The notes beneath the pieces are model-generated. The model worked only from the letters and a program-made list of their open reading frames with translations. It searched no databases and was not told where the DNA came from. From an uncultured Paracoccaceae bacterium (GTDB lineage: Bacteria; Pseudomonadota; Alphaproteobacteria; Rhodobacterales; Rhodobacteraceae): DNA of 64,000 nt. The first letter of the stretch is position 1, and every line of letters begins with the position of its first letter. Location: assembly GCA_905182105.1 (NCBI GenBank), contig CAJJAR010000001.1:62001-126000 (forward strand), given 5' to 3'. Made by a program: the position numbers and the translations under genes. Shown here in pieces: positions 37,928 to 54,118 of the stretch.

Positions 37928-37982
37928 GTGGGGCTCCGCAAATGCTTGACAATATGGGGGGACGGGCGCAAACCAATCCTTG

Positions 37983-38160
37983 CTGGTGCCTGTGTTAAAT
38001 CAGGTGAAAAGGGAATGCGATACGGGAAATATTTTCCCCGAAACGCAGCCGCCCCCGCGACCGTGACCGGAGAGGTTGCCCAACACCACTGATCGCAAGA
38101 TCGGGAAGGTCGGACATACCGCGAGAGAAATCTCAGATCCGCAAGCCGGGAGACCTGCCA
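37983..38160 (+). promoter_or_regulatory. Cobalamin riboswitch upstream of DUF1636-cobW-cobN operon
   Basis: Conserved blocks in order: GGTGCC near 37985, GGTGAAAAGGGAA near 38003-38015, GCCGCCCCCGCGACCG near 38048-38063, and the B12 box GCCGGGAGACCTGCC at 38145-38159. Downstream (38195-38225) a CCCC/GGGG hairpin before a TTTC could act as the expression platform. Adenosylcobalamin binding should turn down the cob operon. Confidence 0.92.
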
Positions 38161-38265
38161 GCATCGACGTTATGTGAACCGGACGGGGTGTTCCGGGCAT
38201 GCGGGTCCCCATGCGCGGGGTTTCGGATGGCCCAACTCTTTCCCTCTAAATTTGAGGCCAAAAGA

Positions 38266-38664
38266 ATGACTGATACAAGTATTTTAGAACCTGTTGAATT
38301 GCTGGTCTGTACGACTTGCAAGATGGGCCAAGCCATTGAAGACGACGCTTTTCGCCCTGGCAATCTACTGCACAAAGCCATGTTGGAACAAGATTTGCCG
38401 GAACACGTGACCGTACGTGCCGTTGAATGTTTCACAAACTGCCAAGGCGGCTGCAACATCATGATGCGCGGCGGAAATCGCTATGCTTATGTTTATGGTA
38501 ACCTAGACCCAGAAACGCAGGTCGAAATCATCACAGATGGCGTTACCCGCTACTACAATGCCGCTGACGGGTTTGTACCTTGGCGCGAACGCCCTGAACA
38601 CTTCCGCAAGAACTGCGTTGCCCGAATCCCACCACTTAATTTGCCACAGGATGCTGCCAAATGA
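38266..38664 (+). CDS. DUF1636 family cysteine-rich protein
   Basis: 132 residues from the ATG at 38266. Cysteines at 15 and 18 (CTTC) and at 55, 59 and 63 (CFTNCQGGC) suggest a metal or [2Fe-2S] site in a thioredoxin-like ferredoxin fold. It is the first gene after the riboswitch and overlaps cobW by ATGA, so a role in cobalt or electron handling for corrin synthesis is likely. The biochemical function is not known to me. A distant paralogue lies at 53756-54118. Confidence 0.85.
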   Translation: MTDTSILEPVELLVCTTCKMGQAIEDDAFRPGNLLHKAMLEQDLPEHVTVRAVECFTNCQGGCNIMMRGGNRYAYVYGNLDPETQVEIITDGVTRYYNAADGFVPWRERPEHFRKNCVARIPPLNLPQDAAK

Positions 38665-39695
38665 GCGATCTCGCCAAACTTCCCGTCACAGTAATCACTG
38701 GTTTCTTGGGTGCGGGTAAAACCACCCTCATCCGTCACCTTATTCAAAACCCACAGGGCAAACGGTTGGCAGTGGTCGTCAACGAATTTGGCGATGTCGG
38801 TGTCGACGGTGAAATCCTGAAATCCTGCGCGATCCCTGATTGCCCAGCCGAAAACATCATGGAGCTGTCCAACGGTTGCATCTGCTGCACTGTGGCTGAC
38901 GATTTCATTCCAACGATCGAGGCCTTAATGGCGCTAAAGCCGCGCCCTGATCACATCCTTATCGAGACATCAGGCTTGGCCTTACCAAAGCCGCTGTTGA
39001 AAGCCTTCGATTGGCCTGACATCCGTTCCAAAATTACCGTAGATGGTGTAATCGCCTTGGCCGATGCCGAAGCCGTGGCCGATGGCCGCTTCGCGCCAAA
39101 CGTTGCAGCGGTTGACGCCCAGCGCGAGGCAGACGATTCACTGGATCATGAAACCCCATTGTCCGAAGTGTTCGAGGATCAAATCAGCTGCGCTGACATC
39201 ATTCTGTTGACTAAGACTGATCTTGCTGGTGCCGATGGCATCGCAAAAGCCCGCTCTGTCATCGAAGCTGAATCGCCTCGTCCAATTCCAATCGTTGAAA
39301 TCTCTGAAGGTGTTGTTGATCCCCGCGTGATCCTTGGCCTAGCGGCCGCAGCCGAAGACGACATGGACGCACGACCATCACACCACGATGGGCATGATGA
39401 TCACGAACATGATGATTTTGAATCTATCGTGGTCGACATTCCTGAAATCGCAGATCCTGCAGACTTGGTCGCACGCATTGAAGCCATGGCCAAGGATCAG
39501 AACATCCTACGCGTCAAAGGATATGCCGCCGTCAAAGGGAAACCAATGCGTCTGTTGGTGCAAGCCGTTGGTGCCCGCGTGCGTCAGCAATACGACCAAC
39601 CTTGGGGCACAACAGAGCGCCGCGGCCGTTTGGTTGTAATTGCTGAACATGACCACGTGAACCCTGACGCAATCCGCGCAGCGCTTGTCGACTAA
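38661..39695 (+). CDS. cobW: CobW, metal-binding GTPase of cobalamin synthesis
   Basis: 344 residues of the COG0523 GTPase family. Walker A is GFLGAGKTT (14-22), the metal site CICC lies in NGCICCTVAD, and the G-domain continues with TKTDLAGADG. A linker rich in His and Asp (about 230-255, HHDGHDDHEHDD) precedes the C-terminal CobW domain. It likely delivers cobalt to the CobNST chelatase. Confidence 0.95.
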   Translation: MSDLAKLPVTVITGFLGAGKTTLIRHLIQNPQGKRLAVVVNEFGDVGVDGEILKSCAIPDCPAENIMELSNGCICCTVADDFIPTIEALMALKPRPDHILIETSGLALPKPLLKAFDWPDIRSKITVDGVIALADAEAVADGRFAPNVAAVDAQREADDSLDHETPLSEVFEDQISCADIILLTKTDLAGADGIAKARSVIEAESPRPIPIVEISEGVVDPRVILGLAAAAEDDMDARPSHHDGHDDHEHDDFESIVVDIPEIADPADLVARIEAMAKDQNILRVKGYAAVKGKPMRLLVQAVGARVRQQYDQPWGTTERRGRLVVIAEHDHVNPDAIRAALVD

Positions 39696-53273: not shown

Positions 53274-53759
53274 ATGGATCGTAGACTTTCAATGCTCCTG
53301 ATCGGTTTGGTCTTTGGTGGCGGCATCGGGTTCACAATTGCGGCTGGTAATGGTGTTACGTTTGACGGCCATGATCACGCGACTGGACACAATGGCGATG
53401 GCCACGATCATTCAGCAGTCAAATCAATCGACCTACCTGCAAGTGATGCAGCCCCAACACTTGCTGTGCAGGTGTTCAAAGATCCAGCGTCTGGCTGGAA
53501 CCTCCAGATTCAGAAAACTAACTTTACCTTCGCTCCCCAAAACGCCAGCACGGCTGATGTGACAGGCGAGGGCCATGCGCATCTCTATGTGAACGGTGAT
53601 AAAGTCGCACGAATCTATGCAGATTGGTTCCACATAGATCACTTGCCCGAAGGTGATGTGTTGGTCGAAGTGGCGCTGAACGCAAACAACCACAGCCAAC
53701 TTAGCGTTGATGGCGTTCCGTTGCGGGTCAATATTCAGGTCATGAACACAACAGATTAA
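53274..53759 (+). CDS. Histidine-rich exported protein, candidate cobalt-binding partner of CbtAB
   Basis: 161 residues. An N-terminal helix (about 5-25) serves as signal or anchor. It is followed by a His/Asp cluster (His 33, 35, 39, 44, 46) and a beta-rich domain with EGHAHLYVNGDKVARIYADW and FHIDHLPEGDVLVEVALNAN. It follows cbtA by 36 bases, behind the same riboswitch. I do not recognise a named family. Location should be periplasmic. A role in binding cobalt for CbtA is inference. It converges with the next DUF1636 gene, with stops overlapping. Confidence 0.75.
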   Translation: MDRRLSMLLIGLVFGGGIGFTIAAGNGVTFDGHDHATGHNGDGHDHSAVKSIDLPASDAAPTLAVQVFKDPASGWNLQIQKTNFTFAPQNASTADVTGEGHAHLYVNGDKVARIYADWFHIDHLPEGDVLVEVALNANNHSQLSVDGVPLRVNIQVMNTTD

Positions 53760-54118
53760 TCCATCGTTGGGATACGGGCGCGCAAGCGATTACGTAACTC
53801 TCCCAATGAGCGAGCATCTTCAATCCAGCCCTTCTTTAGCTCAAGAAACAACTGACACAGCTTAACGATTTCCGTTTCAGACGCTTTGATATCCAACCCA
53901 TCAAAAACATAGGTGCCACGCTTTTCGCCCTGAAGCGAGATGTTCACGGCATGGACGCATCCACCAAGGCATGGCGTTGCCTCCACTTCTATATGATCAC
54001 CGAGCCCAGCAAGCTTGATCGCACTGCGCAATGTTGCACAGTCTTGGCGTGCGGTAACATCACTCTCGCGTTCGCATGTGGCGCAAACCAATAAGCGGTT
54101 CACTGGTTTTTGTGTCAT
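53756..54118 (-). CDS. Second DUF1636 family cysteine-rich protein
   Basis: 120 residues. LLVCATCERESD near the start and ATPCLGGCVHAVNISL hold four cysteines (CxxC and CxxxC), the layout of thioredoxin-like [2Fe-2S] proteins. It resembles the DUF1636 protein at 38266 but is shorter, with a different C-terminal half. It is not behind a riboswitch of its own. Function unknown; the place next to cbtBA suggests cobalt or corrin metabolism. Confidence 0.8.
   Translation of the reverse strand: MTQKPVNRLLVCATCERESDVTARQDCATLRSAIKLAGLGDHIEVEATPCLGGCVHAVNISLQGEKRGTYVFDGLDIKASETEIVKLCQLFLELKKGWIEDARSLGELRNRLRARIPTMD

Follow-up and report, generated by a model that had tools for sequence, protein, structure and literature searches.

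Gene organization around the cobalamin riboswitch

The window analysed here is the whole stretch of 64,000 nucleotides taken from contig CAJJAR010000001.1 (positions 62,001 to 126,000, forward strand; assembly GCA_905182105.1) of an uncultured Paracoccaceae bacterium. As listed in Table 1, it carries a cobalamin (B12) riboswitch, which is followed on the same strand by cbtB, cbtA and a third gene, here called X. The X frame is open over all 161 amino acids, exactly where a sequence-only reading had placed an unnamed His-rich exported protein behind the same B12 riboswitch as cbtB-cbtA. This order was confirmed by the Rfam match and by the two genes that lie between it and X. The His/Asp cluster pointed out in that reading was likewise found (GHDHATGHNGDGHDH, residues 32-46). 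While CbtA scored above its NCBIfam cut-off, CbtB matched TIGR02459 at 5.3e-16 with 58.9 bits, just below the cut-off of 64.4.

Table 1. Features of the riboswitch-cbtB-cbtA-X locus, in window coordinates
Feature	Position	Strand	Description
Cobalamin (B12) riboswitch aptamer RF00174	52125..52333	+	Rfam 111.7 bits (cut-off 31.5), E 3.8e-27, full model 1-189; leader of cbtB-cbtA-X
cbtB, 62 aa	52367..52555	+	Pfam PF09489 2.6e-18; one TM helix (by eye), C-terminal His motif HDAAHDVRHATGFPCH
cbtA, 226 aa	52557..53237	+	Pfam PF09490 2.8e-42; TIGR02458 1.9e-66, above cut-off; predicted multi-helix permease
X, 161 aa	53274..53759	+	Predicted periplasmic protein held by a signal anchor; proposed as third subunit in this clade of CbtAB
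Glycine zipper G11-G15-G19-A23-G27, X residues 11-27	53304..53354	+	In helix 4-25; from HMM-found rows
GHDH motif and His/Asp-rich linker, X residues 32-46	53367..53411	+	Expected at the periplasmic membrane surface
FN3/Ig-like beta domain, X residues 51-158	53424..53747	+	Nine predicted strands; pLDDT (block means) 93-98 for residues 51-160
GHAH, X residues 100-103	53571..53582	+	Candidate metal ligands H101 and H103, each in 21/21 HMM-found X rows
H120	53631..53633	+	Candidate ligand, kept more often in X than in the wider family; 20/21 HMM-found X rows
N138-x-H140	53685..53693	+	Candidate metal ligand H140, in 21/21 HMM-found X rows
DUF1636 protein	53756..54118	-	Pfam PF07845 2.4e-17; convergent, 4-bp overlap with the X stop

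The stop of cbtA and the start of X are separated by 36 bp, and a scan of the window revealed no terminator-like site on the plus strand between them. Riboswitch, cbtB, cbtA and X are therefore likely to share one transcript. CbtA and CbtB domains are encoded in adjacent genes, as in a CbtAB unit, and the location is equally typical of such a unit, with RF00174 directly upstream and cob genes further upstream in the window. These form part of an extended series of B12 synthesis genes, two of which gave tetrapyrrole-methylase Pfam matches; the labels CobM, CobB, CobA and CobF are ones that we presume from family knowledge. In some loci related to X, cob genes are also found nearby. The genome of the window (88.5% complete) was further searched for NicO and CbiM, with CorA and HupE outside the search, and no match to either family was obtained. 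Of the cobalt families NicO, CbiM and CbtAB, the last alone was thus detected in the genome.

The DUF1636 gene is a frequent but not a constant neighbour, with a match in 29 of 38 loci related to X, and DUF1636 was absent from CbtAB-related literature among the matches listed (the best 20 of 43). A second cobalamin riboswitch (37967-38176) leads genes at 38188-39695 that encode a DUF1636-like protein and a CobW-like GTPase (both named by eye), and DUF1636-type genes are present at two B12-linked places of the window.

Family and name searches for X

No significant Pfam or NCBIfam family was obtained for X, the best match being LEA_2 at 0.13. Over the 39 rows of the X alignment A1, stray matches to BetaGal_gal-bd (2/39), DUF2846 (1/39) and the copper-resistance family CopI (1/39, 3.3e-4) were taken as chance or as a result of His-rich composition. 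Sequence searches against solved structures gave no significant relative (the top match, at 0.051, covered part of a zinc ATPase), and a profile search of PDB sequences returned CusF as its sole match, short of significance at E = 1.

Two named families were considered and rejected. X is not a PCu(A)C (PF04314) protein, as neither X nor its 38 relatives gave such a Pfam match, and what X has in common with PCu(A)C fusion proteins is the beta domain alone. X was also compared with DUF4198 (PF10670), which we take to be the Pfam family of NikK-like proteins, and an hhalign probability of 0.2% was obtained against a small and diverse set of eight DUF4198 sequences. In the available portions of the literature searched, the 2003 and 2006 Rodionov papers apart, neither X nor a third component of CbtAB was found to be mentioned; X may still correspond to one of the older names CbtC to CbtG or CbtX. 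CbtC is given as a 'predicted cobalt transporter' in the consulted part of a Pseudomonas genome paper (PMC7142416).

Coupling of X to cbtA and the riboswitch

Species genomes were scanned for relatives of X with six seeds (VFGGGIGF, HNGDGHDH, FKDPASGW, IQKTNFTF, YADWFHID and LNANNHSQ). Besides the window, 38 loci were found to encode relatives with 41-87% identity, and X is thus not a chance reading frame. The co-occurrence with cbtAB behind riboswitches that the sequence-only reading had proposed as a check is evident in these loci: cbtA lies directly upstream of the X relative in 37/38, and a cobalamin riboswitch leads cbtB in 36/38. The stop of cbtA even overlaps the start of X in five of them (L009, L018, L029, L030 and L031). 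At L005 the contig start falls inside cbtA. At L039, from a Verrucomicrobiales bin, the X domain is fused behind a DoxX-like membrane part (DoxX score below the cut-off) and cbtA is missing.

Evenly drawn genome samples were then searched with a profile, which is not tied directly to the seeds, although it came from the loci found with them; a match starting at profile position 5 or earlier was counted as an anchor-bearing X. In the family sample (149 genomes), 44 matches were obtained. All 18 anchor-bearing ones adjoin cbtA on the same strand. None of the remaining 26 does, including a match in G294 that begins at profile position 12 and has no GHDH. The class sample (289 genomes) gave 13 matches, with 4/4 anchor-bearing matches adjoining cbtA and only a remnant in G077 doing so among the other nine. 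Similarly, 4/4 anchor-bearing matches adjoin cbtA among the 11 matches of the phylum sample (398 genomes). G000 and G154 are present in all three samples. The link of X to CbtAB is strong.

Distribution of X on the CbtA tree

CbtA itself is more widespread than X. A CbtA match was found in 61 of the 289 class-sample genomes (60 above the cut-off) and in 45 of the 149 family-sample genomes (44 above the cut-off). X is absent beside 27 of the 45 CbtA rows fetched for the family sample, and 25 of these 27 fall outside the clade described below. The suggestion of the sequence-only reading that X completes the CbtAB uptake system was therefore too broad when applied to CbtAB in general.

In a tree of 114 CbtA rows, all 57 X-bearing rows fall into one clade of 61 (support 100/98), while X is carried by 0/53 rows outside it (among them L148, for which only 352 bases behind cbtA are available). 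As 37 of the X rows came from the X search and over-represent X, the family sample alone provides the fairer count, with X in 18/20 rows inside the clade and 0/25 outside. The X label requires 5 changes on this tree as compared with a mean of 38 in shuffles, in a tree whose bootstrap had not settled. The tree covers neither 24 of the 61 class CbtA matches nor the family match below the cut-off (G321), nor L050-L052, three very divergent CbtA rows that the CbtA of the window missed as a query.

Four rows inside the clade are exceptions: L159, L161 and L137 have no X, and L113 has a decayed one. The latter (L113:355-750, reverse strand) is a decaying X directly behind cbtA in a 1.8-Mb genome of the same class. 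X is an addition in one CbtAB clade and not a general CbtAB component. On these sequences it looks like a single gain followed by a few losses, which the tree permits but does not prove.

Plasmid-borne copies of the unit

Matches were also obtained in 80 plasmid records, 7 of which were examined: three carry the whole unit, one a remnant and three other copies of the domain. The riboswitch-cbtB-cbtA-X unit is present on a 12-kb mobilizable Pontibrevibacter plasmid, on a Leisingera plasmid adjoining a Tn3 transposase, and on a Labrenzia plasmid adjoining a recombinase with merA near; X is annotated as 'hypothetical protein' on these three. On a Roseibium plasmid (L176:5288-6444), X lies behind a cbtA that is 5'-truncated next to conjugation genes; X and the DUF1636 gene are intact, and neither a cbtB match nor a riboswitch was found on it. 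Judged from these records, riboswitch-cbtB-cbtA-X is a cassette that evidently moves, partly on plasmids.

A predicted membrane anchor and a candidate metal site

X was modelled by AlphaFold2 from the 39-row alignment A1. Residues 4-25 form a helix and are followed by the linker, both at low confidence, and the beta domain anticipated in the sequence-only reading (residues 51-158) was predicted with nine strands at high confidence (Table 1). By fold comparison it is FN3/Ig-like, a common class: Foldseek gave no match to solved structures at E <= 1e-3, and the best VIA Z was 9.5, with 80 residues superposed at an rmsd of 2.1 A, which is uninformative on function.

Because the A1 seeds partly build in the helix, H120 and N138/H140, statements on conservation rest on 21 HMM-found rows. 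In those rows, which span the anchor, zipper positions 11, 15, 19 and 23 are kept 21/21 and position 27 is kept 19/21; variants of the helix motif occur (e.g. L042, L072, L076 and L079), with the same four positions still fixed. Each position of GHDH (residues 32-35) is kept 20/21, and G100, K110, R113, Y115 and N138 are as invariant (21/21) as the histidines H101, H103 and H140. The share of the commonest residue averages 0.75 over the helix (10-26) and 0.80 over residues 27-35; for the domain the mean is 0.63, and for the linker 0.46. Of the 61 X rows, 42 retain H46, at the end of the linker.

Helices with a glycine zipper typically pack against neighbouring helices, and a cleaved signal peptide would need no fixed zipper positions. 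As these positions are fixed in 21/21 rows, X is better called membrane-anchored than exported. With the positively charged N-terminus MDRR, the beta domain should face the periplasm. The anatomy of X (TM anchor, GHDH, His-rich linker, and a beta domain with GHxH and N-x-H) is consistent with the idea that X binds metal in the periplasm as part of the transporter.

The fixed zipper, together with the coupling of X to one CbtA clade, would also suit a protein that mainly assembles or stabilises CbtA/CbtB through its helix, with the histidines being secondary. Precedents for such accessory importer parts are CbiN with CbiM and NikK/NikL, as described in the relevant parts of PMC2667541 and PMC7689651. 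However, H101, H103 and H140 are kept 21/21 in the HMM-found X rows and 32/34 in the wider family, which suggests that the domain has a job of its own. Moreover, when CbtA and X were modelled as one read-through chain with a thinner X alignment, the X-helix block means were 64, 54 and 36 as compared with 51, 50 and 43 for X alone. With confidence in the helix hardly raised, if at all, the modelling lends no support to a CbtA-X contact, and packing of one X helix on another X appears equally possible. An X that mainly serves assembly is accordingly considered quite unlikely.

A wider family of the beta domain

The beta domain is not confined to X. G100, H101, H103, K110 and H140 are present in 61/61 X rows and in 34, 32, 32, 33 and 32 of 34 broader rows respectively, while H120 is present in 59/61 X rows but only 17/34 broader rows. 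By this pattern the domain is a putative family of its own, as yet unnamed, with conserved GHxH, K and N-x-H, and its conserved histidines are likely to mark a candidate metal site. In L108:4276-4680 and L109:4513-4911, from two 1.4-Mb genomes of SAR11-like size, the GHxH histidines are replaced and an N-terminal AHHPG motif is present.

A PCu(A)C domain stands in front of the X-type beta domain in 10 of 11 aligned longer relatives (L091-L098, L100, L105 and L107), and the X domain aligned to these PCu(A)C-linked copies with an hhalign probability of 100% (E 2.1e-39). One gene of this type (L177:6602-7360) adjoins that of an unnamed 469-aa protein without a Pfam match, with a branched-chain-type ABC transporter in the vicinity. 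In three further loci (L088:3155-4697, L089:3336-4883 and L179:4771-6309), a YHYH gene is followed directly by an X-domain gene; the pair is likely a two-gene periplasmic unit. A CopC gene (L088) and a COX1 gene (L086) were found within about 3 kb of a domain copy, at one locus each.

Could X then carry copper or nickel, merely as a passenger in a B12 cassette? The fusion of the wider family to PCu(A)C would agree with this, as would the single CopI match among 39 relatives and CusF as the sole, non-significant profile match in PDB sequences. But anchor-bearing X lies directly behind cbtA in 18/18, 4/4 and 4/4 cases of the three samples, and X and cbtAB units travel together on plasmids, so we regard a passenger carrying another metal as very improbable. 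Since the beta domain is common to copper and other contexts, it is the riboswitch and cbtAB, and not the domain, that suggest cobalt as the metal.

Proposed role of X

The gene order, the riboswitch, the restriction to one CbtA clade, the conservation of anchor and histidines and the predicted domain together point to X being an accessory third subunit of one predicted CbtAB clade, which captures metal for CbtA; we consider this role reasonably probable. At low B12, the riboswitch would allow joint expression of cbtB, cbtA and X. The X protein would be held in the inner membrane by its glycine-zipper helix, packed on the helices of CbtA/CbtB or on a second X, with GHDH and the His-rich linker at the outer face of this membrane and the FN3-like domain reaching into the periplasm. 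The linker and H101/H103/H140, possibly with H120, may bind a scarce divalent metal, most likely Co2+, and X would then hand it over to CbtA at its periplasmic mouth, close to the His motif of CbtB.

Several points count against this proposal. Most of the examined CbtA rows outside the clade, and three inside it, manage without X, and the relatives of the beta domain lie in copper or unassigned contexts. The read-through model of CbtA and X, the merely predicted cobalt transport by CbtAB and the growth result from Methylobacterium (both below) likewise weigh against it. X is best read as an optional third subunit, which would capture metal for CbtA in one clade.

The many CbtAB units without X would also fit a role of X in buffering metal or guarding the unit in the periplasm. 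Near the transporter, X would then sequester cobalt in excess, or else copper, zinc or nickel that compete with it, and would serve protection or selectivity instead of feeding CbtA. Such a function agrees with the loosely conserved, His-rich linker and with a domain common to PCu(A)C fusions. It is nevertheless unlikely, given that control by a B12-sensing riboswitch generally suits scarcity more than excess, and that the anchor is conserved past what the tethering of a buffer would need. Capture of metal for CbtA thus remains our preferred role for X.

In a broader and more tentative picture, to which we give slightly less than even weight, an FN3-like periplasmic metal-binding domain (GHxH ... 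K..R.Y ... N-x-H) would have been joined to several metal systems, by fusion to PCu(A)C, behind YHYH and by fusion to a DoxX-like part. Within a single clade of CbtAB, the domain would have gained the zipper anchor and GHDH, and the resulting three-part cobalt importer with a capture arm may have spread among marine Alphaproteobacteria as a riboswitch cassette, partly plasmid-borne.

CbtAB is little studied, and its role as a cobalt importer was predicted by comparative genomics. As a partner that tracks one of its clades, X provides a handle on the putative cobalt transport by CbtAB and on metal capture before entry, and the common domain is a name-worthy family for hypothetical proteins and PCu(A)C fusions. 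X occurs in Roseobacter-type bacteria, which include B12 suppliers of algae. Cobalt capture by X would therefore bear on marine B12 supply.

Comparison with known metal importers

CbtAB is described as a predicted cobalt transporter (PMC2667541), and cobalt transport by it is likewise given as predicted, with experimental confirmation pending (PMC4771312). The cobalt-uptake table of a 2021 review (PMC7689651) does not include CbtAB, and in Methylobacterium overexpression of cbtAB gave no rise in growth rate under plasmid-induced cobalt limitation (PMC2773004); each of these statements refers to the consulted part of its source. Within this family (PF09490 and PF09489), the cbtB-cbtA pair of the window behind its cobalamin riboswitch is a plain member. 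What distinguishes its clade from CbtAB generally is the addition of X, which none of the 53 CbtA rows outside the clade has.

Relatives of the domain resemble X to different extents. The PCu(A)C-linked copies have the same beta domain, with GHxH, K and N-x-H largely kept, but they carry PCu(A)C in front, show no alignment to the zipper anchor or GHDH, and have no cbtA match in the 9-kb stretches around them. The YHYH-associated copies (neighbours of PF14240) share with X a single beta domain with the conserved set of histidines. However, they lie directly behind a YHYH gene, and no cbtA or cbtB match was found in their stretches.

The closest precedents in outline are NikK/NikL of NikKMLQO and CbiN of CbiMNQO, in which, as proposed here for X, an extra part is encoded together with a metal importer; some NikKMLQO operons are also located next to B12 genes or follow a B12 riboswitch, according to the pertinent part of PMC2667541. 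Unlike these proteins, X has CbtA as its presumed partner instead of an ECF transporter, and it combines one predicted TM helix with an FN3-like domain.
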